Positions 12,828-47,521 of a DNA stretch of 49,097 nt are shown piece by piece; positions within the stretch are counted from its first letter, which is position 1; each line of letters starts with the position of its first letter. Location: NCBI GenBank assembly GCA_031273215.1, contig JAISSF010000010.1, forward strand, positions 1 through 49,097, read 5' to 3'. The translations under genes were made by a program, and so were the position numbers. Below the pieces are notes generated by a model. That model was not told where the DNA came from, ran no database searches, and saw only the letters and a list, made by a program, of their open reading frames with translations. Source of the stretch: Mycoplasmataceae bacterium. Lineage in GTDB: Bacteria; Bacillota_I; Bacilli_A; Mycoplasmatales; Mycoplasmoidaceae.

Positions 12828-14333
12828 ATGAATAAAGTAGCGTTAATCATTATGGATGGAGTTGGAATAACTGATACCACAAAAGGTAATGCCGTATACC
12901 ATGCAAATAAGCCTAATTTAGATGGATTAATTAAAGAATACCCTAATACTTTAATTGATGCTAGTTGTGAGGCTGTTGGTCTTCCTGATGGGCAAGTTGG
13001 TAATAGTGAGGTTGGACACTTAAACATCGGAGCTGGTAGAATTGTATATACTGGGTTGTCTATTATCAATAATACTATTAAAACAGGTACATTCAATAAC
13101 AATGAAGCTTTTAATGATGCAATTAACCATGCCAAAAAACATAATGGTAAACTACATTTATTTGGTTTAGTATCTCGTGGTGGTGTTCACAGTTCTTGAG
13201 AACATTTAATTTCATTAATCAACTTTGTTGGTGATAAAAACATTCCTGTAGTTTTACACACCGTTACTGATGGAAGGGATGTAAAACAACAAGCATTTCT
13301 AGAAGACTTATCTCAATTATTGCCTATCCTTAAGAAAAATAATGTGAAATTAGGTTCAATTAGTGGAAGATACTTCGCTATGGATAGAGATAAAAACTTT
13401 GATCGTGTACAAAAAGCTTATGATGCATTAGTTGGACAAGCTGAATTATCTTTCTCTAATCCAGTTGAATTTATTAAAGAGAACTATGCTAAAGGAGTTA
13501 ATGATGAATTTATCGTTCCTGCATTAAATTCTAGTTATGATAAGAACGAAGTGGCATTACAAGATAACGATAGCTTTATCTTCTTCAACTTCCGTCCAGA
13601 TAGAGCAAGAGAAATCTCTCACTTAATCTTTGATTCTAATTTATATGATTATCAAACTAAAAACAAAAAGAATAACATCTATTTTGTTACCATGATGAAA
13701 TATGACGGTATTACCCCTAGTGCTGTAGCATTTGCACCTCAACAAATTAAGAATGGTTTAGGTGAAACACTAGCTAATAATAAAGTTAGACAATTAAGAG
13801 TAGCAGAAACAGAAAAATATGCTCACGTTACTTTTTTCTTTGATGGCGGAGAAGATATTGATTATGCTTATGAAAACAAAATCATTGTAGAAAGTGCAAA
13901 AAACATTTCATATGATGAAGTTCCTCAAATGGGTGCTTATGAAATTTGTGAACATATTATTAATAAGATGGATAACAATGATGTAATCATTGCTAATTTT
14001 GCTAATGGAGATATGGTCGGTCATACCGGGAATTTTGAAGCAACTATTAAAGCAGTAGAAATTGTAGATGAGTGTATTGGTAAAATTTATGAAGCAGCTC
14101 AAATTCATGGATATACATTAATGATCACTGCTGATCACGGTAATGCTGATAAGATGCTAGATGAGAACGATGAAGTAGTGACTAGTCATACTTCTAATAA
14201 AGTACCTTTTATTGTTACAGACAAAAATATATCTTTAAAAGAAAATGGTAAATTAGCTAATGTTGCTCCTACTATGCTAAAATATATTAATGTAGATGTT
14301 CCCGATGAAATGGAAGAATCTTTGATTAATTAA
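12828..14333 (+). CDS. gpmI: 2,3-bisphosphoglycerate-independent phosphoglycerate mutase
   Basis: A 501-residue GpmI that interconverts 3- and 2-phosphoglycerate in glycolysis. Metal ligand Asp10 lies in IIMDGVG; the phosphorylated Ser60 is in [16 protein letters not shown]; the second metal site shows [12 protein letters not shown] and [12 protein letters not shown]. The length is normal. One TGA at 13198 encodes Trp in SSWEH. The end overlaps the convergent lipoprotein by 8 nt. Confidence 0.97.
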
Positions 14334-15954
14334 ATTCTATACAATTGGAAGGCACTATCTGTACAACATTATCTTTGCTTTCAACAAAACAATTATTTAA
14401 GAAATATTCGATATGGTAGCTCCCATTTTGGTCTTGAACATAATTTATATTGTCTGGACCATCTTTTCCGCGATAGAAGGACATCACTTGATATCATGGC
14501 AAATCATATTCCAAACTAGTATTTTGTACTCTTACTTTGAAAGTATTATAACCAATATGCGCTGCATCTTGTAAAAAATAAGAAGTGCCAAAATTTTCAC
14601 TAGAATATCCATCATCATGTACTCCTTTATCTTCAAAGATACCAATGTTTAAGAAATTATTAGAGGTTAGCCCAGCGCTATTAATCAACTGAAATTTACT
14701 ACTTTCAGTAAAAGGTTCTTCGTCTAACTCTAATAAATTAATTTGTTCGCAGTTACTTAATCAATATATAGGTAGATATACTCCTGTTTCTGCTCGGAAT
14801 TGTAAATCACCAAAAATTTCAGGACCAGGGTATGAATAAAAGCAATCAAATTTAAACATCTCTTCACCCAGTACAACAACCAATACACTGCAATCGTACA
14901 AACCACCTTCGCTATTATTGATTTCATCAACGGGTACTGGGATTAATTGTGAGAAATAAGTTTTATCTGGAAAATCTCGTTCAAATGCACCAAATAACTG
15001 ATATGGACTAAATATTTTAAAGTTAAAACTTGCACTCCCTAAGGAAGAAAGACTTGCAGAGATATTGCAAGTGAAAGATAAGATTGTTGAGGTATTCATA
15101 TCATATCTAAACTCATCTATATCCATCTTAAAGGTAGTTATCGGTAATGGTACTCAACTTTCAACGTTATTTTGGAGTACTTGACAAAGATAACACATGT
15201 CAGCTTTTAAAATGTTAGATATATCTACATATCGTGATATCATTTCTTCATAATCCGCTTGTTGGTCTGGCGTTGGAGTTGGTGGCAAATAAACATAATC
15301 AGTTCTATAACCAAAATATACATCTCGTCCCATATCAGCAATGCCATCGAATTTATACCCTTCATTATAAGGTTGTAATGTATTTATTTGTTCATTAGCA
15401 AAATCTCGAACATCAGGAATCGTTTTTAAATAATCACTAGGTTTAATTGTATTATCTAAACTAAATTTTAGATCTAATATATTAGAGTCTTGAAAAATAA
15501 CTTTTTTCTCAAATACATAGTTTGTTTTATTTCTCGAATGGCGAAAATCAAATCTAATATAGCATCCATTAACTTTTTTATAATCACTTAAATCAAGTTG
15601 ATCTTGGCTGATATTGAAATTAAGTTGAAATTGGTTTTGATTTGCTCTTTCACAACTAATAATCATTTTTTCCATTATGATACGCAATTTTTCATTGCCA
15701 TCGAATAATTGGTTACCATTTTCATCTAAATATGTAATTTTAGGATCTTTAAAATCTCTTAAAAAATATCCATGTAATGTTAAAACATTTTTGTCACCCG
15801 TTCCATTTATATTTACACTTTTTTCACCAGTTCAAACAATTTCAGGTTTAATAACGGAACATGATGTAATAAAAACCGAAGTGAAATATCCCCCCCCAAC
15901 AAGAGCAGCAGTAGAAATCGGAAGTAGTGTTTTTAGTAAATTTTTCTTGTTCAC
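14326..15954 (-). CDS. Phase-variable lipoprotein A
   Basis: A 542-residue predicted lipoprotein with basic N-terminus, hydrophobic core and lipobox ending at Cys32 (FITSCS). No enzyme motif is seen. It is clearly paralogous to the next gene (16015-17652): both continue after the Cys with SVIKPEI, share KKV-FQ-SNILDL-FS, and share YFSQL and WLSN blocks. The start is GTG (15954), 7 nt after a TATAAT. A run of eight G (15890-15897) encodes Gly20-22 inside the signal peptide; a one-base change would truncate the protein. The frame is open throughout, so it is ON here. Likely a surface-exposed variable antigen or adhesin; role inferred from family type. Confidence 0.85.
15890..15897 (-). repeat. 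Poly-G8 tract in lipoprotein A signal peptide
   Basis: Eight C on the plus strand (G on the coding strand) within codons 20-22 of the lipoprotein. Such runs are rare in AT-rich DNA and slip during replication, so this is a candidate ON/OFF switch. Confidence 0.85.
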
Positions 15955-15962
15955 ATTTCAAA

Positions 15963-15996
15963 TTATATCAAAAAAAAAAAAAAAAAACAATGGGAT
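15963..15996 (-). promoter_or_regulatory. Promoter of lipoprotein A with an 18-T spacer tract
   Basis: On the minus strand, TTGTTT is followed by the rest of an 18-T run plus GA (17 nt in total) and then TATAAT, 7 nt before the GTG start. The T run therefore fills the -35/-10 spacer, and changes in its length would move the two boxes apart or together. The plus-strand A run covers 15970-15987. The -35 box is weak, so its assignment is tentative. Confidence 0.65.
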
Positions 15997-16014
15997 ATTT
16001 GAATTTTTTTAATC

Positions 16015-17652
16015 CTAATTTGTCACTAAATTTTCTATAGCTTCAGATGGGATAGTTCTCTTATTGTTTGAATCAACAAAGCATTTATTTAGAAAGTATT
16101 CAATATGATATTTCCCATCAGCATCTTGAATATAATTAGAATTTTGACCATGGTAAAACATCATAACTTTATATCAAGGAATAATATGAGTACCGTCTTC
16201 ATTTTGAATTGTGCAAGTAAAATTGTTATCTCCGATATGTTCAGCATCTTCTAAGAAATATGAATTACCAAATCCACTTGGATCATCATAGTCAGTAAAT
16301 CCTTTATCCTTAAACATACCTACATTTAAGAAATTATCAGTAGTTAAATCTTCAACATTTTTTAATTGGAATTTATCTGTTGCGCTAAAAGGAGTGTCAG
16401 CAATTTGTAGTAAATTTATACTTGGTAAATTAGATAATCAATACAAGGGAATATATATTCCTAAAGCAGCTTGACTTCCAAGGTCACCAAAATAATTAGA
16501 GCCAACATAACTAAAAAATTGATCATATTTTTTATTTACAATACCACCAGCTACATATAAATCAACAGAACAATCGTATAAGGGTTGCTCTTTGTCTTCA
16601 CTATCGGCTTTTAATACAGGAACTAATTGCGAAAAATATGGTGTAATATTTTGCATTTCTTTTCGAAAAGTGCCAAAGAATTGATATGGAGAATTAATAT
16701 TGGCGTTAATATCAACAGTTCCGTTAAACAAACTCAATGCTTTTATATCAGCATGAGCACTAACTTTACAATTTAAAATTGTAGCGGTGTTCATATCATA
16801 TTGAAAATCTTCGATAGTTGCTTTAAAGTCTTTAATGGTTAAAGGAACAGAATATGTTAAAATTTGTTCAATAATTACTTTTGTGAAATAACAAATATCA
16901 GATTTGATTATGTTACTAATATCAACATACCGTTGTAACATTTCTTTATAAGCGGGCAAATCACTAGGATCTTCAGGGGGATCAACAGGATCTGTTTTAT
17001 ATCCAAAAAAAATAGGTCTGCCATATTCAACAACATCTTCGAAGCTATAACCTGAACTGTACGGTCTTAATACATTTATCGGTTGAGTAGCGAAATCTTC
17101 AACGGAAGGGATGGATTCTAAATATTCAGCAGGATCGGCTGTTTGATCAAAACTAAATGATAAATCCAGTATATTGGATGTTTGGAAAACAACTTTTTTT
17201 TCAAATGTGTAATCGATGTTTGTTTTTTTGTGTTTAAAATAGAATTTTATCTTACAAAGGTTAGCATTAATACATCTTTCAATATCATCTTGTTCGGTAA
17301 TAGCAGGGTGAAGGGGAATAAAGTTTAATGTAAATTCTTTACTATTTGTTCTTTCGACAGCAACTTCTAAGTGTTCATGAATAGTGATTAATCTTTGATC
17401 ATTTTCTAATAATTCTTGTCCATCCTGGTCTAAGAATGTAATAATAGGATCATTGAAATCTTCGGTAAAATAACCGGTTAAAGTAATGGTATTTTGATCA
17501 ACGTTAGTACCATTAATATTAACACTTTTTTCTCCAAATCAATCAATTTCAGGTTTAATAACGGAACATGAAGTAGTAGTTAACGGAAGCATACCCCCCC
17601 CAGTGGCAATTACAACTGGAGCAGAAATTTTAAGAAGTAATTTGTTTTTCAT
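16015..17652 (-). CDS. Phase-variable lipoprotein B
   Basis: A 545-residue lipoprotein paralogous to lipoprotein A along its whole length. Lipobox Cys29 (LTTTSCS). Eight G at 17594-17601 encode Gly18-20 in the signal peptide, in the same relative place as in A; the frame is open, so it is ON. Starts at ATG 17652, 12 nt after the cls stop, with TATAAT at 17663-17668. Shared blocks with A include SVIKPEI, GEKSVNINGT and INSPYQFFGTF-like segments. Function unknown; probably surface-exposed. Confidence 0.85.
17594..17601 (-). repeat. Poly-G8 tract in lipoprotein B signal peptide
   Basis: Eight C on the plus strand, encoding three Gly before the lipobox. Same length and location as in lipoprotein A; a candidate slippage switch. 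Confidence 0.85.
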
Positions 17653-34280: not shown

Positions 34281-37200
34281 TTACTTTTCTTCTTTAATAT
34301 AGGAACTAGAAATATCAAAGAATTTTTCAAAAAATGATTTTAGCTTTTGAATAATTGAACGTTTAATTTTAGGACGATTACTATCTTTAGAAAATCTTGA
34401 AATTTTAGGTATAATTTTGCTTATCTCTGTCCCGTTTTCTTTTATTTCACCATCCCTAAAACAAGCATTAACATATTTGTATGTTTCTTCATGATTCAAA
34501 TCGTCAGATTTAATTATCGATTCTAATTCTTCTCTCTTGCATTGATCAATAAATTGTATTCATTCTTGCTTTTTTTCAGAATTAATTTGTTTTATAAATT
34601 CTTCTATTAATTCTTTTTTCAATCTCAAAGAAGGCGAACTGCTAATTGCTTTATTAATCTGTGACAATATTTCTTTATTTTTACAATGTGAATCATGGTA
34701 TTTTTCTACTAAATGAAGTATGTAGTCTATATTAATTTCTGTTTGTTTAACTAGTTCTAATTCAAATATCAAATCATCATTTATATTTTCTTTATCAGCT
34801 CCGGAATTATTTCTTAATTTATTGTATAAATCTAAATACACACTTTGATAATCTTGGAATTGCATTTCAGTTAAGATTTCACTTCCAATAAACTCGTCAA
34901 ATGAAGAAAGTATATTTTTAACTTTCAATATTCCACCAAATAATTTAATAAATTCTTTCTCATTTTGTTCTCCAATAATTTGTAATGACCCAAATTTTTC
35001 TTCTAACTTATTAATTAGTTCCTTATACCCCTCTATTCTTTTTCCATCTTTTTCGTATCCATTATAATATTCGCTAAATGTTTTTAATAAAACAATACCC
35101 TTCGCATCTCTATCTCCGAATAAAGAAATGGATTCATCTACATTTTTCTCTAAATCTCTAAAACACACTATATTACCAAATGTTTTAACTTCATTTAATA
35201 TTCTGTTGGTTCTACTGAATGCTTGTAGAAGTCCGTGAAGTCTTAGATTCTTATCTACCCATAATGTATTCAATGTTGTTGCATCAAAACCAGTTAAAAA
35301 CATATTAACAACAATTAAAATATCTAGACCTTTTTGTTTCATTCTTAGAGAAATATCTTTGTAATAGTTTTGGAATCCTTCTTTATTATCACCAGATGTA
35401 GAAAAATTAGTATTAAACATAGAGTTATAGTCTTTAATACTATGCTCTAAAAACTCTCTAGAACTTTTTTCCATTCCTTCTACTTCAAACTCTTCTTCGC
35501 CGAGAACACCATCAAGAGGATCTTCTTCATTTGGTGAGAAACTAAAGATTGTTGCAATTTTAAGTTTTGAATTTTCGGGTAGATTGTTTTGTTGTTTAAA
35601 GAATTCCTCATAATATTTTTTTGCCGCTTCTATACTTTGAACTGCGAATATAGAATTGAAACCATTAATACGTTGTTGTTTTAATTCGTAATATCTATTT
35701 CTTGCTGTTTTTTGAGCAAAATGTTCAAGTATATATTTTGTAACAGCGGATATTCTTTCTTTTGATAGTAAAGCAGCTTCAGTATCTATTTTAAGAGTTT
35801 GACCCAATATGTTATCTTTAGCTTTAATCGTATTAACATAGTCTACTCTAAAAGGCAAAACATTGTTATCATTAATTGCATCTATTATTGTATATGAGTG
35901 TAATCTTGCTCCAAATGCTTGTTCGGTAGTTTTTAGGTTAATAGAGTTAGAAGAAGATGAATTAGCGGCAAATATTGGAGTACCAGTAAAACCAAAAATG
36001 TAATAATTTTTAAAATAATCAGTTATATTCTTGTGAAATTCACCAAATTGACTTCTATGACATTCATCAAATATTAAAACAACATTTTGCTTATAAATTT
36101 CATGAATAGAATTCAGCTTTATAAACTGGTTCATCTTTTGTATAGTAGTTACCAATATTCTTTTATTAGAATCTTCTAATCCTTTTTTAAGTTCTTTAGT
36201 ATCTTTACTACCATTAACACTATTTTTTTGGAATTTGTCATATTCTTTCATTGTTTGATAATCCAAATCTTTTCTATCAACTATGAAAATAGTTTTACTA
36301 ATACAATCCATCTTAGAAACTAATTGTGCGGTTTTGAATGAAGTCAGGGTTTTACCTGAGCCTGTTGTGTGTCAAATATATCCACCAGCATCAACAGTTC
36401 CTTGTTTTTTGTAGTTAGTAGAGATTTCAATTCTGTTAATAATTTTTTCTGTGGCAACAATTTGATATGGTCTCATAACCAATAATTCTTCATCACTGGT
36501 ATATACACAATATTTAGTTAATATGTTTAATAATGCGTGTTTCGCGAAAAATGTTTTACAAAAGTCTACTAAGTCAGGAATAGTTTTGTTTTTTTCGTCT
36601 GCTCATCAAGATGTGAATTCGAAACTATTAGAAGTTTTCTTGATATTTGGTTTATTTCCTTGTTGGTCTTGACGTATTTTTTTGTCTCTAGTTGTGTTAG
36701 AGTAATATTTCGTATGTGTTCCATTGCTTATAACGAATAACTGGATATATTCATATAAACCATTACCAGATCAAAAACTTTCTCTTCCATATCGTTTAAT
36801 TTGGTTGAACGCTTCCTTAATTGCAACGCCACGTTTTTTAAGTTCGATATGAACTAGAGGTAAACCGTTGACAAGAATAGTAACATCATAACGATTTTCT
36901 TGTGAACCAACAGTCTCGTATTGATTTATAACTTGCAAGGTATTTGCATGTATATTGTTTTTGTTAATTAAATAAATGTTTTTAGTTGTGCCATCATCCA
37001 GCTTTATGTTATGTATGTAATCCTCTTGTATAATTTTGGTTTTTTCTTTAATTCCCTTAGAATCATTAGCAATAATATTAGTAAATAAATAATTTCATTC
37101 TTTTTCGCTAAACTTGTAGTTATTTAACTTTTCTAATTGTGTTCGTAGGTTTGATATTAGTTTTTCTTCACTATTGATGTCTAAATATTCGTATGCTTGA

Positions 37201-37334
37201 GACTTTAATTGTTCAATAAATGATTTTTCTGATTCGGCTTCAGATTGATATGAAGTTTGTGTTTTCCTTTCCGATATATATTCTGATACAACAGTAGTAT
37301 CTGGTGTTTGCATTACAATTTTATTTTTAGACAC
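34281..37334 (-). CDS. hsdR: Type I restriction enzyme, R (motor and nuclease) subunit
   Basis: A 1,017-residue HsdR that translocates and cuts unmodified DNA. The N-terminal nuclease shows [15 protein letters not shown] (the PD-(D/E)xK core); motor motifs include [10 protein letters not shown] (Walker A), [11 protein letters not shown] (DEAD-type) and FGFTGTPIF, later [19 protein letters not shown] and QAFSRTNRI. The full frame needs several Trp TGA codons; without them it would appear as three fragments. Start is GTG 37334, overlapping the HepT-like gene by 8 nt. Last gene of the hsd operon. Confidence 0.95.
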
Positions 37335-37704
37335 CCTTCACCTCCCTTAACAACTTACAATACTTTCTTAGCACTTTTATTTCCTCTTCTGTATTAGTAG
37401 GATATTCCTTGTATTTAATAACATTGTGTCCTACTCTTACTCTAATATTTCATAAATCCTTGTACTGACTTTTCGCAATAGGTGTCCCAAATTCATCGCA
37501 TAAAGTATTTGCGATATGTAAAATTTTAAAATGCATTGCATCATTTATTAACATATGTTCATAATATGGCGACATACCTTTTGTGGAAATACCATTATAC
37601 ATAATTGTTGGTTCATTATTTTCAATATCAAAACTCTTCAAATAGTTATTTATTAATTCAATTTCATCGATTGCACGTCCAATTTCAAAGGTTTTTCTAT
37701 ACAT
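37327..37704 (-). CDS. HepT/DUF86-like HEPN protein inside the hsd operon
   Basis: A 125-residue helical protein between hsdS and hsdR. The central NDAMHFKILHIANTLCDEF resembles the HepT (DUF86) helix with DAVxxxLxxIGEA, and the later LWNIRVRVGHNVI places an RX4H motif where HepT has its catalytic RX4HXY. The Tyr after His is not conserved, so the active site is degenerate or altered. It overlaps hsdS by 1 nt and hsdR by 8 nt, so its expression is tied to the restriction system. No MNT antitoxin gene accompanies it. Confidence 0.6.
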
Positions 37705-38921
37705 TAAACATTTACCTCCTCAAAACTTAGCAATTTCGTTCTGTAGAATTCATATTGTTTGTTTCTCAGTTCGATTTCTTTAGGCAAACCGTTTGAAATA
37801 TTATTAACAATTTCATAGAATTTATTTAGCTGCTCAGCTATGGTGTTTTGTACATCAATATGCGGAATAGGAATGATTACTTCAGATAAAAGTTTTTTTG
37901 AAACATTAAAACGTGTTACACCAAAAGCTGTTTTGATAATTTGTTCTCTAACATTTTTTGATCGAAATAAAAATTTTAAAAAGTCAGGGTTAAATAAATT
38001 TTTATTTTCAATTCTCAAACCGAAGCAAAAACTATTTAAATAAAGTTTTTCATTTGTTTTCTTTGTCAATACCGAAGTCATGCCGACTTCTAGAGGTGTC
38101 TCGGATGAACCAGTGAAAATTACGTCGGAGTATTCTATTGTGTTTTGTTTTTCATTCTCACTTATTTTTACCTTAGAACCAATATCGATATTTAGAGAAA
38201 TATTATCAAAAACATTCATATATGTAATAAGTTTAGAATTACCATTTGAAAAATCATCCTTTGTCTTCCCTGTTAGTCCTGAATAAAACTTTCCTATTTC
38301 ACTAATTTTCATCATCCTTATTCCCCCCCCCTCTGGGAATGTCAATAATTTATTTTTATAGTATTCATATTGTTTCTTTCTCGCTTCCAGCTCCGCTTCC
38401 AGCTCCGCTTCCAGCTCCGCTTCTAATGAAGAAAACTTATCTAATATTTCAACTATTTTGTCTTGAACTTCAATTGGTGGCACTGGGATTTTTATCAACA
38501 TTAATGAATTGATATCTAGTGTAGGGTATGTGGCTTTTTCTGGATAAAATTTCTGTATACAATCGGTTAATAAATAATACAAGAATTTCACTAGTAGTTT
38601 GCTTTTATTTTTGGAAGTAAATAAATGATTGTTCGAACTAACAAATTTTCCGTTTCAATATTTTAGATTAGCATATCTAGCTATACCTGCTGATATTACT
38701 TCACCCTCACATATATTTTCACCCGCCAGTTCTTTTGTTGTGTATCAAGTATTATTACTTAATGGCAATAAACGAACTTCATTTGTGCCTTGTAAAATCA
38801 TATTTTGCATAATATTTGCGGGTACTTGCTTAAATCCGCCATGCTTAACGATTTCTGAAAATATCATAAATTGTACACCTTTAGGGCACATTTTTTTAAT
38901 GAGTTCTTTTATGTTATCCAT
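37704..38921 (-). CDS. hsdS: Type I restriction specificity subunit with repeat tracts
   Basis: A 405-residue HsdS: two target-recognition halves, each ending in a conserved helix. Half 1 has PPIEVQDKIVEILDKF then the coiled region with KKQYEYYKNKLLTF; half 2 has PHIDVQNTIAEQLNKF then NKQYEFYRTKLLSF. Between them are the ELEA repeat (12-bp units at 38383-38423) and nine G (38323-38331) encoding Gly197-199, then MMKISEIGKFY, which looks like the start of a second HsdS. The frame is open, so the fused two-domain form is ON. The ATG overlaps the hsdM stop by one base. Confidence 0.93.
38323..38331 (-). repeat. Poly-G9 tract between the two halves of HsdS
   Basis: Nine C on the plus strand. A length change would end translation soon after the first target-recognition half, while two ATG codons just downstream could start the second half. 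Confidence 0.85.
38383..38423 (-). repeat. 12-bp tandem repeats encoding ELEA in HsdS
   Basis: Three full copies of GCTTCCAGCTCC and part of a fourth. They encode repeated Glu-Leu-Glu-Ala in the central spacer helix, comparable to the TAEL repeats of EcoR124I, whose copy number changes the recognised site spacing. Confidence 0.85.
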
Positions 38922-40474
38922 TATTTTTCAATCTCCTCCACTATTTTATCAATTTCGTTTCTTAAATTATCGACCTTAGCTACAGTTTCTTTTATTTGTT
39001 CGTTTAATACTTCAATATTGATAACTTCAGTAGTATTTTGTGATTGTATATATGTATTTGTAGTTAAGTTATATGAGGCATTTTTGATTTTGCTATTGCT
39101 AACAACTTTAGCTATATATTCAACATCTTTTCTTTCTTTATACAAATTCAATATATCATTTATATTTTCTTCCGAAAGTTTATTTTTTGTGTTTGTTCTT
39201 ACAAATTTTTGAGATGCATCAATAAACAATACATCATCAGATTTTTTTGATTTTTTTACAACCAATATACACGTAGAAATTGCAGTCCCAAAGAATAAGT
39301 CAGATGGTAATTGAATGATACAATCAACATAGTTATTATCAACTAAATATTTTCTAATTTTTTGTTCTGCGCCACCTCTATATAAAATACCAGGGAAAAC
39401 AACTATAGATGCTGTACCATTGGTAGATAATCATTTTAAACAATGCATTATAAAAGCGAAGTCGGCTTTAGACTTAGGTGCTAATACACCAGCAGGTGAG
39501 AATCTAGGATCGTTGATTAATAAAGGGTTTGAGTCCCCTTGTCAGTGAACAGAATATGGAGGGTTAGAAACAATTGCCTCAAATGGTTCGTCATTTATAT
39601 GTTGTGGATTGATTAATGTATCTCCACGTGCAATATTAAATTTTTCATAGTTAATATCGTGTAAGAACATATTAATACGACATAAGTTATATGTAGTAGG
39701 ATTTAGTTCTTGTCCATAGAACCCTTGGTGGACATTGTCTTTACCTAATATTTTAGCAAATTTTAAAAGTAGAGAACCAGAACCACAAGCGGGATCATAT
39801 ACTTTATTCACACTGGTTTTGCCTACAACAGCAATTTGTGTTAATAATTCCGATACTTCTTGAGGTGTAAAAAATTCCCCCCCCGATTTTCCAGCCTTAG
39901 ACGCATACATTCCCATTAAAAATTCATATGCATCTCCGAACAAATCAATTGAGTTATCCTTGTAATTTCCAAAATTAAGTTTTCCGATAGAATCAATTAA
40001 TTTTACTAATCTATCATTTCTCTCTAAAACAGTTACTCCCAATTTGTTGGAGTTAACATCATAATCGTCGAACAAACCTTTGATATCTTGTTCACTATCT
40101 GTACCAATCGAAGAAGCTTCAATTTCATTTAGTATTTTAGAAATGTGTTCGTTTAAATGCTCGCTATAATCTTTGTCTGTTTTAGATTTATTTCAAACAT
40201 TATTAAATAAGCCAGATGGCTTTATAAAAAAACCTTTTTCTTTTACAATATCTTCTTTTGCATTTAAAGCATCTTCATCTGAAAGTTTTTCATATTCTTC
40301 ATTATCCGTTTCCTTTATATAAGAAACTAAATTTTCGCTTATAAATCTGTAGAATAAAGTACCTAATATGTATTGTTTAAAATCTCATCCATCAACAGCA
40401 CACCTTTGTTCTTCAGCTATTTTTCAAATTGTTTTAAAAAGTTCTTGACGTTCTGTATCTTTTTTATTGTCCAT
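38921..40474 (-). CDS. hsdM: Type I restriction-modification DNA methyltransferase subunit
   Basis: A 517-residue HsdM (N6-adenine methylase). Motifs: [27 protein letters not shown] (SAM-binding motif I) and [11 protein letters not shown] (catalytic NPPY). Eight G (39877-39884) encode the Gly pair of GGEFFTP, so slippage would remove the whole methylase domain. The frame is open (ON). TATAAT (40481-40486) is 6 nt before the ATG, making it the first gene of hsdM-hsdS-HepT-like-hsdR. Confidence 0.96.
39877..39884 (-). repeat. Poly-G8 tract in the GGEFFTP motif of HsdM
   Basis: Eight C on the plus strand in the coding sequence of HsdM; a slippage here would truncate the protein before the SAM-binding motif. 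Confidence 0.8.
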
Positions 40475-41753: not shown

Positions 41754-42056
41754 ATGAATATGCAAGCAATGATGGCTCAAGCACAAAAGATGCAAAAAGA
41801 GCTTGAGAAAAAAATAAGTGAATTCAGTGCTAAAGCTTTTGAATATAGTTATAAGAATGATTCTATTGTAGTTATTATTAAAGGAGACCTAACTATCTTA
41901 GACATTAAGATTAATGATGTATTAGTTGATCCAGAAGATAAACAAACACTACAAGAAATGATTTGTGAAGCTGTTAATGCTGCTGTTAGTGGAGTTAACC
42001 AAGATAGAGAAGCAATTCAAAATAGCGTTAGTAGCAAAGGAGGAATGCCTTTCTAA
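41754..42056 (+). CDS. ybaB: YbaB/EbfC family nucleoid-associated protein
   Basis: A 100-residue DNA-binding protein. The N-terminal helix (MQAMMAQAQKMQKELEKK) and a compact beta core (IVVIIKGDLTILDIKIND) match YbaB/EbfC dimers. Overlaps plsC by one base; co-transcribed with rplK-rplA. Confidence 0.85.
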   Translation: MNMQAMMAQAQKMQKELEKKISEFSAKAFEYSYKNDSIVVIIKGDLTILDIKINDVLVDPEDKQTLQEMICEAVNAAVSGVNQDREAIQNSVSSKGGMPF

Positions 42057-42880
42057 TGAAAACATTAATTAAAGTATTAAAGGCTATTGGTTATGGTCTT
42101 GCTTATCCTTTTGTAGGTATTGGGTTAATAATTAGTTTCTCTAGTGCTAAAAGAGCTGCTAAGAAATACCGTAAAGCGCCTAATAAAGTATTTTTAGAAA
42201 ATAGATATTATGTAGTTTACAAACTAATTAACCGTGTATTATTTTTAAAAAGAATTAAAGTACAACACGATAGATTAAGTAAAGTGCCAACAACTCCTTG
42301 TCTATTTGTATATAACCACAAATCTAATTTAGATGCGTTAATCTTAATTAAATTACTATATGAATATAAAGCAGAATACTTTAATGGTTTTAAAATGAAA
42401 TTTGTAGCTAAACAAGAACTAAACAAAAAGAAAGGTGTTGTTACTGCTGTTATGGATTTAATTGATACACTTTATATCGATAGAGATAACATCCGTCAAC
42501 AACTACAAGTATTTGATCAACAAAATGAATCTATTAAAAATAAATATAGTATCGTTATTGCTCCTGAAGGTACAAGAGTTCCTGGAGATGAGTTTGGAGA
42601 ATTCAAAGCCGGCGCATTTAAAGTAGCTTATACTAATATGACTCCTATTCAACCAATCGTGATTTATGGTTCAAGTGGATTATTATTTGATAAAGATAAA
42701 ACTAATACAAATAAATCTAGACAAGTATATGTTAACTTTATGCCTTACTTAAAACCATTTAACTTCCACACTCATAATATCGAATATCTAAGCAATGAAG
42801 TAAAGAATGATATGCAAAATACATATGACCAAATTAAAGCTAGAGTTAGAGAGAATAGAAAAGTATTCGAAGAGAACTAA
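42056..42880 (+). CDS. plsC: 1-acyl-glycerol-3-phosphate acyltransferase
   Basis: A 274-residue membrane acyltransferase that makes phosphatidic acid. The HX4D motif is NHKSNLD (His88, Asp93), followed by FNGFKMKFVAKQEL and the APEGTR glycerol-phosphate motif. One N-terminal membrane segment. Its stop overlaps the convergent lspA-tsaB gene by 4 nt. Confidence 0.93.
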   Translation: MKTLIKVLKAIGYGLAYPFVGIGLIISFSSAKRAAKKYRKAPNKVFLENRYYVVYKLINRVLFLKRIKVQHDRLSKVPTTPCLFVYNHKSNLDALILIKLLYEYKAEYFNGFKMKFVAKQELNKKKGVVTAVMDLIDTLYIDRDNIRQQLQVFDQQNESIKNKYSIVIAPEGTRVPGDEFGEFKAGAFKVAYTNMTPIQPIVIYGSSGLLFDKDKTNTNKSRQVYVNFMPYLKPFNFHTHNIEYLSNEVKNDMQNTYDQIKARVRENRKVFEEN

Positions 42881-43983
42881 ATCGCTTCTTTTATATATAA
42901 GGGTTTAACCTCATTACTTTTAGTTAATACAAAATCATTTAAGTGAAACAACATATTAGCAAAGATATCTGCTGATTCAAAATCTTTATATACCGGTAGT
43001 TTATATTCACTAATTATTTTTTCTAGTTCTTCATCATTATGAATAGCAATTGGTTTAACTAATTTGTTTTTTTTATAAATAGCTGTGTAATATTTCTTTC
43101 CCCGAGCATCTAAAATAGAAATACCTTCATCTTTAACTTGTAGTTTATTAGATTCTATTGTGTAAATGTTTAAAGGTTTGATATTACTTCATACTTTAAC
43201 GATAATTGAGCCAATACGATCTCCAGTAAAACTACCAGGACCTATAGTAATATAGATGTTATCAATTTGGTTAGGTTGTACTTTCGCATATTTTAATAAT
43301 TTACGAATATGTTCAATAGCTACATCTGTTAAGTTATTATTAGTAGGAATTGATTTTCTAATATTAATTTCTATCCCTTGAAATAAGCAAATATTTAAAT
43401 GTTTTTGAGTTGTATCAATAAATAAGTTAATTGGTTTATTTTTATTTACATTCTTTTCTAAATTAACAACCATGCCAATAATTGTGTAAATAATAAAAGC
43501 AACTAAGAATAAAATTGTACCTCCAACCACACACATATCGGGAACATTGAAAATTGAACCACCAACCATATTATTACTAAATTGTAAATAATCTAAAACT
43601 TTGTTTTTCACTAATTCATTTCCAACCATTTTAGGTACCATTCTATCAAAGAAGTTAAATAAGCCACCAAAACCAATACCACTAATAGTAACTAGATACT
43701 CTCATTTATTGATAAATAAGATCATTACGGTTAATAAAATCAAGGGAAATAATATTTGAAAGAATGTAATCATCACACTATTACCCATACTAAAAGCACC
43801 ATTAGCGTTTAAAGCGACAATTATGTGGATAAAACCTTCTTGATTCCCATAAGTACCACCTTCTCCTAATTTCCTTGCTCATAAGCTTAAAATAAGTGAA
43901 GGAATAAGTAAAATAATCATGGTAGAAATGATAAATATACTTCTACGTATTAGATCGTTCTTTTTTACATTTAATTTTAGCAT
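42877..43983 (-). CDS. Fusion of lipoprotein signal peptidase (LspA) and TsaB
   Basis: A single 368-residue frame. Residues 1 to about 160 are LspA: four membrane helices, NANGAFSMGN, GFGGLFNFFDRMVPK (first catalytic Asp) and IFNVPDMCVVGG (second). From about residue 165 it is TsaB, a partner of TsaD in making t6A on tRNA: INLFIDTTQKHLNICLF, ITIGPGSFTGDRIGS and ISILDARGKKYYTAIY. Trp TGA codons are needed; none of the junction codons is a stop. The two activities are unrelated. TATAAT at 43990-43995 is 6 nt before the ATG. Confidence 0.85.
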
Positions 43984-44003: not shown

Positions 44004-44735
44004 ATGAGTGAAGAAAAGAAAGAACCAAGTCAAGAAATTGGTGAGGATATACAAGTTGATTTCACACCTGTTCCTAAAGTAATTACTAAAGATACTCTTG
44101 ATATCAACGAAAACGTTGGTTCTTTCTCTAAAACTTTTACTAAACCAGAAGAAACTAAAGTTGAAACAAACTTACCTGAAGTAATTATTAAAAATGAACC
44201 TAGTCCAGCTAAAGAAGTAGAGATTGCAGCAGCTGTTGAGAAAAAAGAAGAAGCTAAGGTTGAAGATAAAGAGGAAGTTAACTTTGAACGTTTCAATAGA
44301 ACTAAAACTTATTCTAAGAGTTCAGTTGGTAAATTTAAAATTGGTTTAGAAACTAAATTAAACAATAGAAAGAGCTTAATTAAAATTTGATTAATCTATT
44401 TAGGAGTAATTGCTGGATTAATCGTTGCTTGTGCTCTATTTATCGTATTTGATGCTAAGAACTTAGAAAAAGGTGGGGGATACAATCATATTAAAGATGT
44501 TAAGAACTGTGGATTAGTTGGAGAAATCTTTGCTTATATTGCTGTATGTTTGCCTGCAATTCCTTTATTTGTATTATTCATCGCTTGATTAATTCAAATT
44601 AATGGTACATACAAATCTCCTTCATACCACTTAATGTTCATTGTATTCTTATCTATCTCATTAGTTATCTTCTTTGTATCTCTTGTGTTAAGTTCAGTAT
44701 ACTTAAGCATGACTAACCACTATATATTAGCATAA
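44004..44735 (+). CDS. Membrane protein with charged N-terminal tail, unknown
   Basis: A 243-residue protein. Residues 1 to about 125 are hydrophilic and rich in Glu, Lys, Pro and Val, including [17 protein letters not shown], a near copy of the rplV tail. Three hydrophobic segments follow (about 130-150, 173-195, 205-228). No family recognised. Shares its promoter region with lspA-tsaB and overlaps the trmL start by one base. Confidence 0.75.
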
Positions 44736-45241
44736 TGCTTAACATAGTATTGTTTGAACCTGAGATTCCTCAAAATACTGGCAATATAGCTCGAACATGT
44801 GTTGGATATGATGCAACCCTACATATGATTAGACCATATGGATTTATATTTAATAAGCAAAACAAAGAATTAGTAAGAAGTGGTGTAGATTATTGAGACC
44901 ACTTAAAAGTGATTGAATATAACTCATGAGATGATTTTATTAAAAAGAATCAACCAGAACAAATCTATTTCTTAACTAGATATGGTAAATATACACCTTC
45001 TACTATGAAAATCGATAAACAAAAAGAAACATATATTGTATTTGGTAAGGAATCTACCGGTATTGATAAACAAATACTAAAAGAAAACGTAGAAAAGACT
45101 ATAAGAATTCCTACAAGTAAAAATGTAAGAAGCTTAAATGTATCTAATTGTGTCGCTATTCTTGCCTACGAATACTCTAGACAAAATAATTATGATGATC
45201 TAGAAATCGAAGAACCTCATAAAAAGAATATATTGTTTTAG
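44735..45241 (+). CDS. trmL: tRNA (cytidine/uridine-34 2'-O)-methyltransferase
   Basis: A 168-residue SPOUT methyltransferase. It starts [20 protein letters not shown], has the SAM-knot signature [15 protein letters not shown], and ends with [19 protein letters not shown]. TrmL methylates the wobble base of certain leucine tRNAs; a tRNA-Leu(TAA), a typical target, is encoded just downstream on the other strand. Confidence 0.93.
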
Positions 45242-46127: not shown

Positions 46128-46418
46128 TTATTCAGTCTTTAGGTTGTTAAGAATGATAACTCTTTCCATTTTAGCATTAAATTGTTCTTGTCTAACGTTG
46201 AATTGTTCTTGTCTAACAATAAAATCCATTAGGATATTCGCTAATTTGTCAACTGTCATTCTTGGTTTTTTAGTGGTGTTCTTATTTTGTTTCACTTTCT
46301 TTTTAGGTTTTACACTTCCTATTATATATGTTTCGATTTCAAGTTCATCCCCAACTCTTTGTGGATCTTTATCATACTTCGTAATTTTGATAATTGTTGA
46401 TTTTCTTTTCATATACAT
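46128..46418 (-). CDS. Small repeated-family protein (copy 2)
   Basis: A 96-residue full-length homologue of the protein at 32621-32875, with the same three parts: an IIKITKYDKDPQRVGDELE domain, a KQNKNTTKKPR linker and a coiled-coil tail. The tail contains a tandem VRQEQFN VRQEQFN repeat (21-bp duplication). ATG 46418 overlaps the comEC-like stop by one base; a second ATG two codons later could also be used. So it is the third gene of the recA operon. Confidence 0.8.
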   Translation of the reverse strand: MYMKRKSTIIKITKYDKDPQRVGDELEIETYIIGSVKPKKKVKQNKNTTKKPRMTVDKLANILMDFIVRQEQFNVRQEQFNAKMERVIILNNLKTE

Positions 46419-47521
46419 TAACTTTTTCGCACCTCTTGCAGTCTCAATTCATGGTTCTTTTTATATTTATCAATAAATAGAATCGGAACCAAACAGCCAC
46501 AATAAAACACTGAGTCAATATAAGGACACAACTTGCCAACTTTAACTTCTACATTGATACTATAAATCTCATTAATAATAAAAAATAACCCATTAGCTAA
46601 AAAAGTATGGATGGGTTTGAGAAAAACTAAAAATCATGTAAAGAAGTACCAAATATAGAGCAAACCAAAAATTATCGAGAATCCAACCCCAAAGAAAATA
46701 TTAGTAATGCTAACCACCCCTTCCATCTTTGCTAAAAAGGGAATAGATATCAATAAACAACCCACATTAACCAATAACATTTCTAAAACCACATTACTAA
46801 ATTCTTGATCAAATACTCACATTACAAAATATGTACATAAGTAACTTAAACAAAAACCAAAGTTGAATACCGCACTCGGTTCAATAAAGATGGTAAACAT
46901 TCCACTAAGTGCTAATATATCATATTTATTTCTTACAACCTTAGATAAGCTCATAGAAAATATTAAACATAATAAAACTCTTAAGATACCACTCCTAAAA
47001 GACAAGACATAACAATAAAAACTAATAATGATTAAAGAAATAATCTTACTAGTTAATTTATGTCTAACAATCTTATTAATCAATAGTTTTAGGAATGATA
47101 CTTGAAACCCTCCTACACTCAATAAATAAACAATTGATAAATGTTTTGTTTGGTTATAAATAATTCATGATTCACTATTATTCTTCATCCCAAAACATAT
47201 TAATAATATGGCTGCACTAGTATTATCATCATACTTACGATCTACAAACCCTACTAAAGGTTTAGTAATTCAATCATTAGGTATTTGTTCAAATACACAA
47301 TAATTTTTAACAACTAAATACAAACCAATAGGGATAATACTAATCCCAAAATAAATAAGCACAAACACCCAGCTTATTCGTGAATGATGGAGGAAGATAA
47401 CCAGTATGGGTAAAACTCCTAAAATTGAATAAGCTGGGTCTTTGAAGATGATATACATGAGGATACATGAATTCATCAATATTAAAGAAAGATGTAATTC
47501 TCTCTTTTGCTTTTTAAGCAT
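46418..47521 (-). CDS. ComEC/Rec2-like competence membrane protein
   Basis: A 367-residue membrane protein with about nine helices. The segment YLLSVGGFQVSFLK, then FRSGILRVLLCLIFSMSL and EPSAVFNFGFCLSYLCTYF, match the ComEC/Rec2 channel core (LLSxSGxHxS, RA-like motif and FQLSF-like segment). The N-terminal OB and C-terminal metallo-beta-lactamase domains of larger ComEC proteins are absent. Overlaps recA by one base and the small protein by one base. Could take part in DNA uptake; not shown. Confidence 0.78.

Follow-up and report, generated by a model that had tools for sequence, protein, structure and literature searches.

A lipoprotein signal peptidase and the t6A-synthesis protein TsaB joined in one reading frame in an uncultured mycoplasma genus

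In an uncultured mycoplasma genus, the gene for a lipoprotein signal peptidase (LspA, signal peptidase II) runs in frame into the gene for TsaB, a component of the machinery that synthesizes t6A on tRNA. The fused gene is described here from a window of 49,097 nucleotides (the whole stretch of DNA that was analysed) belonging to a 549-kb, 77%-complete genome of a Mycoplasmataceae bacterium, and the same fusion is present, each time in an unbroken frame, in 8 of the 36 species of the genus that were searched. Judging by this set of sequences, the fusion is real, inherited, and conserved, and the picture of a decaying gene does not fit it. It is likely, in our estimate, that the two enzyme parts are both intact and probably working, that the fusion has a single origin by way of the loss of rluD, and that the resulting tethering of TsaB to the membrane is a tolerated by-product.

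The fused gene and its reading frame

The gene lies on the minus strand, and direct reading of its frame gives an ATG at 43983-43981 and a stop codon at 42879-42877. The frame is free of stops only if TGA is read as tryptophan, as it is at three codons (W35, W94, and W265), and it is broken up when translated with table 11. Since most of the long frames in the window also require TGA to be tryptophan, this is the code of the organism, and no special pleading is made for the fusion gene. The preliminary description of this DNA had proposed one continuous frame for LspA and TsaB that holds both catalytic Asp regions of the former and the GPGSFTG motif of the latter. This is borne out by the 368-residue frame and its matches to both families, in which D113, D131, D149, and GPGSFTG are all found. 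The features of the gene are the following (positions are those of the window).

43983-42877, minus strand: LspA-TsaB fusion gene, 368 aa, with TGA as Trp
43447..43983, minus strand: LspA (signal peptidase II, Peptidase_A8) domain, approximately residues 1-179, by Pfam and predicted structure
43645..43647, minus strand: codon of D113, the conserved Asp in the NFFDR motif, invariant in the eight fusions
43591..43593, minus strand: codon of D131, a predicted catalytic Asp in the VLDY motif, invariant in the eight fusions
43537..43539, minus strand: codon of D149, a predicted catalytic Asp in the FNxPD motif, invariant in the eight fusions
43435..43446, minus strand: junction, approximately residues 180-183, from the last aligned LspA residue to the first aligned TsaB residue in the structure alignments
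42880..43434, minus strand: TsaB domain, residues 184-368, by TIGR03725 and structure matches
43222..43242, minus strand: GPGSFTG motif of TsaB, residues 248-254, by direct reading

The LspA part

The N-terminal part matches Peptidase_A8 (PF01252) with 39.5 bits against a Pfam curated cut-off of 25 (8e-10), and its score of 50.6 bits with the NCBIfam LspA equivalog TIGR00077 (E 1.9e-13) is under the cut-off of 73.95. This is a divergent mycoplasma LspA that stays below the equivalog threshold, and the claim of LspA function therefore rests on the fold and the residues. With regard to the fold, four membrane helices are predicted in the structure model (residues 8-39, 69-90, 94-115, and 147-175), and residues 7-179 of the predicted structure align with the solved LspA 6ryp with Z 16.6 and an rmsd of 2.9 over 159 residues (VIA-align). 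With regard to the residues, the window protein bears the motifs NANGAF, NFFDR, VLDY, and FNVPD, and the active-site positions N59, N110, D113, D131, N146, and D149 are invariant in an alignment of the eight fusions. Going by LspA structures, D131 and D149 correspond to the catalytic pair, whereas D113 is the Asp of the “DR” motif conserved in LspA. The arginine of this motif, R114, is replaced by A in one fused species (G028) and by H in another (G008), which counts against the explanation that we prefer. In the separate LspA of G011 (L040), Gln stands where the DR motif has its conserved Asp.

The TsaB part and the junction

The C-terminal part matches the NCBIfam TsaB equivalog TIGR03725 with 76.1 bits against a cut-off of 69.3 (3.6e-21). 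In the predicted structure, residues 184-368 align with the TsaB chain 6s84_F from its native residue 1 (VIA-align; Z 16.6 and an rmsd of 2.8 over 182 aligned residues), and this part also matches TsaB chains of TsaBDE complexes (Z 16). Within the GPGSFTG motif, G248, P249, G250, F252, T253, and G254 are invariant in the fusion alignment. Since the structure matches span residues 7-179 and 184-368, the polypeptide is made of two complete proteins with about four joining residues. An AlphaFold2 model of the fusion, built on the eight fusion sequences, has a mean pLDDT of 81.7 and a pTM of 0.53; thus, each domain is credible, but the placement of the domains relative to each other is not.

Recurrence of the fusion

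A search for the same fusion in mollicutes, suggested as a check in the preliminary description, brought up seven further species of the genus (G002, G017, G015, G028, G008, G012, and G030), whose proteins are 34-52% identical to the window protein, with G002 as the closest carrier (~52%). This recurrence puts the fusion far beyond chance, and the view that the single frame is a genuine gene fusion is strongly supported. Outside the genus, no LspA-TsaB fusion appears among the matches listed, either for 320 genomes of the order or for 392 genomes sampled from the phylum; in both searches, full-length fusions rank first among the matches listed.

Neither a second TsaB nor a second LspA was found in the window genome, where the other PF00814 match is TsaD. 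Six of the seven other fused genomes gave a single match only in the genus search, and hence no LspA or TsaB apart from the fused one was detected in them. G015 also encodes a separate and very divergent LspA of 186 aa (L042:1511-2071), which may have come from gene duplication, from transfer, or from contamination.

Origin of the fusion

In relatives, the genes follow the order lspA-rluD-tsaB-rimI and often overlap. At E 1e-39 or better, an RluD of the operon type was found in 26 of the 36 genomes of the genus but in none of the eight fused ones, and it is also missing from G013 and G031; all of these genomes retain distant paralogues only. In G013, lspA adjoins tsaB with a 1-base overlap, unfused, and the operon rluD is missing. 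This abutting order, taken together with the lack of rluD in the fused genomes, makes a deletion of rluD followed by the loss of the lspA stop an explanation of the fusion. According to this proposal, rluD would have been deleted, once in the genus, from the lspA-rluD-tsaB-rimI operon, so that lspA came to abut tsaB, and the lspA stop would then have been lost in the right frame. Deletion followed by read-through from lspA into tsaB is, on the gene orders compared, the likely route.

In a concatenated tree of LspA and TsaB (mixture model), from which the divergent second LspA of G015 was excluded, the fused genes of all eight species group together in a single clade (99/99, in 100% of bootstrap trees). 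In the same tree, G013 groups with G011, apart from the fused species, and is therefore an analogue of the intermediate and not the intermediate itself. The tree of TsaB alone is poorly resolved, and that of LspA alone is distorted by the second LspA of G015. The GyrB+ParE tree agrees with the concatenated one except for G004 (L060), which it places beside G015 and G017 within the fused species; in G004, lspA, rluD, and tsaB are separate, with rluD in place. One clade of the eight fused species is rejected on GyrB+ParE (p-AU 0.0004). This counts against a single fusion with vertical descent, which can be kept only if the genes of G004 were replaced or acquired by transfer or if its long branch is misplaced; transfer of the fusion itself could equally account for the conflict.

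A second fusion of lspA exists in the genus. In G007 (L055), G016 (L036), G019 (L057), and G014 (L061), which constitute one clade in the GyrB+ParE tree, LspA is fused in frame to RluD, giving proteins of 413-436 aa, and Pfam confirms both the LspA and the RluD domains in the G019 protein. As in LspA-TsaB, the same lspA is joined to an operon neighbour; here, however, lspA runs into the gene for the pseudouridine synthase RluD, and tsaB remains separate. No description of an LspA-RluD or other LspA-pseudouridine synthase fusion was met in the papers searched. That lspA has fused in two different ways with the gene that follows it suggests that operons as compact as these readily give rise to such joins. 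In the G014 protein (L061:1574-2815), the LspA part is devoid of the VLDY-Asp stretch present in all other members, and a second LspA was not found in this genome; the G014 LspA is possibly inactive, or the assembly is possibly at fault.

Proposed function and alternative readings

Both termini of known LspA proteins are cytosolic. Combined with a join of about four residues, this topology predicts a TsaB in the cytosol, tethered beside the membrane, and the anchoring suggested in the preliminary description is plausible. The N-terminal LspA, with its active site facing outwards from the membrane, would cut prolipoproteins, its substrates being the lipid-modified forms, while the C-terminal TsaB, on the cytosolic side, would pair with a separate TsaD for the synthesis of t6A37 on tRNA. 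The fusion would fix the ratio of LspA to TsaB at 1:1 and keep TsaB, and so some of the TsaD, at the membrane. The two reactions are probably unrelated, as independent activities housed in one polypeptide. The sequences themselves show the fusion, its conservation, the retained key residues, the missing operon rluD, and the gene orders of the relatives; both enzyme activities, the topology in the living cell, the membrane location, and the want of any specific coupling are inferred. The history of the gene order is enough to account for the join, with no need for membrane anchoring to serve a purpose, and the tethering would most likely be a tolerated by-product of genome reduction.

It is unlikely that the fusion was selected because a membrane-held TsaB/TsaD is useful, e.g., for tRNA modification near membrane-bound ribosomes or for coupling lipoprotein output to translation quality. 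Such selection would be in keeping with the persistence of the fusion, both domains retained, through the deep divergence of eight species, and membrane-bound ribosomes have been suggested for mollicutes (PMC4014445). However, persistence may mean only that both parts are needed, no link between t6A and lipoprotein maturation is known, and the LspA-RluD fusion in another clade is the kind of join that chance fusion of neighbouring operon genes would produce. Somewhat less probable still is the idea that LspA-anchored TsaB draws TsaD to the membrane, where t6A synthesis would be physically coupled to lipoprotein processing.

It seems very improbable that a free TsaB is made alongside or instead of the fusion protein, whether through translation starting within the frame or through proteolysis at the join. 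An ATG does occur 16 codons ahead of the FID motif of TsaB in the window genome, and in G002 both GTG and TTG occur close to the junction. Yet a scan of the junction for ATG, GTG, and TTG, covering seven fused species (with G030 left out), found none of these codons in the 35 preceding the TsaB start in two species, G028 and G012, and no start near the junction that the remaining scanned species have in common; moreover, the join is merely about four residues long.

An assembly or sequencing error that fused two genes in silico has next to no probability: the named fused relatives are all Mycoplasmataceae metagenome assemblies, four of them from one sample (Nm470), but eight assemblies with strongly diverged proteins display the identical frame and join, and this recurrence across diverged genomes rules out a sequencing error. 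The names of samples, among them Nm470 and Zx50, presumably point to insect-gut metagenomes, although the text of a termite paper gave no confirmation of it.

Relation to known systems

With LspA (PF01252; 6ryp, 6ryo, and 5dir), the fusion shares the four-helix membrane fold and the conserved active-site residues, and it differs in carrying a complete TsaB at the C-terminus and in scoring under the TIGR00077 equivalog cut-off. With TsaB, or YeaZ (TIGR03725; TsaBD and TsaBDE complexes, e.g., 6s84 and 6n9a), it has in common the full length of the protein, the GPGSFTG motif, and a TsaD in the genome. Known TsaB proteins are soluble, whereas the TsaB of the fusion is without a free N-terminus and attached to a membrane protein. 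The Kae1-Bud32 protein MJ1130 from Methanocaldococcus (2vwb, 3en9), which is among the structure matches, is likewise a natural fusion with a t6A component, but it unites two subunits of one complex, whereas LspA and TsaB come from unrelated pathways.

The preliminary description knew of no reported LspA-TsaB fusion, and the open-access papers searched hold no description of one either (the subscription literature and domain-architecture databases being outside the scope); the gene appears to combine two known enzymes in a domain architecture not described before. It joins enzymes from pathways that have nothing to do with each other, in genomes that are reduced, and it leads one to expect a component of the t6A machinery tethered to the membrane. 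Moreover, a single genus with LspA-TsaB, LspA-RluD, and unfused abutting genes illustrates how neighbours in an operon fuse, and it warns that a domain fusion need not imply a functional link here.

Pathway partners and other genes of the window

In the window genome, TsaD is encoded separately (G000:C5:8753-9580; PF00814, E 3e-70), and Lgt is encoded as well. TsaC was not found in this 77%-complete genome, and TsaE was found only below the cut-off; the missing TsaC may be due to genome incompleteness. TsaE is reported to be absent from the Pneumoniae subgroup (PMC4014445). At 14326-17652 on the minus strand, two similar genes lie side by side; their products, of 540-554 aa, have lipobox-like starts (TSCSVIKPE) and no Pfam match and are candidate lipoproteins and hence candidate LspA substrates.

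The fusion gene is flanked as follows.

42056..42880, plus strand: convergent PlsC-like acyltransferase gene (sequence reading), outside the fusion, with a 4-base overlap with the fusion stop
44004..44735, plus strand: divergent neighbour, a membrane protein without a Pfam match, adjoining the fusion in the window genome (G000), G002, G017, G015, and G028
44735..45241, plus strand: TrmL-like SPOUT methyltransferase gene (sequence reading), a neighbour in the same genomes

Further along the minus strand, type I restriction-modification genes occupy 34281-40474, with HsdR recognized by Pfam and HsdS and HsdM by reading of the sequence; the HsdS-like protein of this region contains a short AELE repeat. 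Finally, a ComEC-type competence protein (PF03772) is encoded at 46418-47521 on the minus strand, beside a recA-like gene, in this reduced mycoplasma genome.
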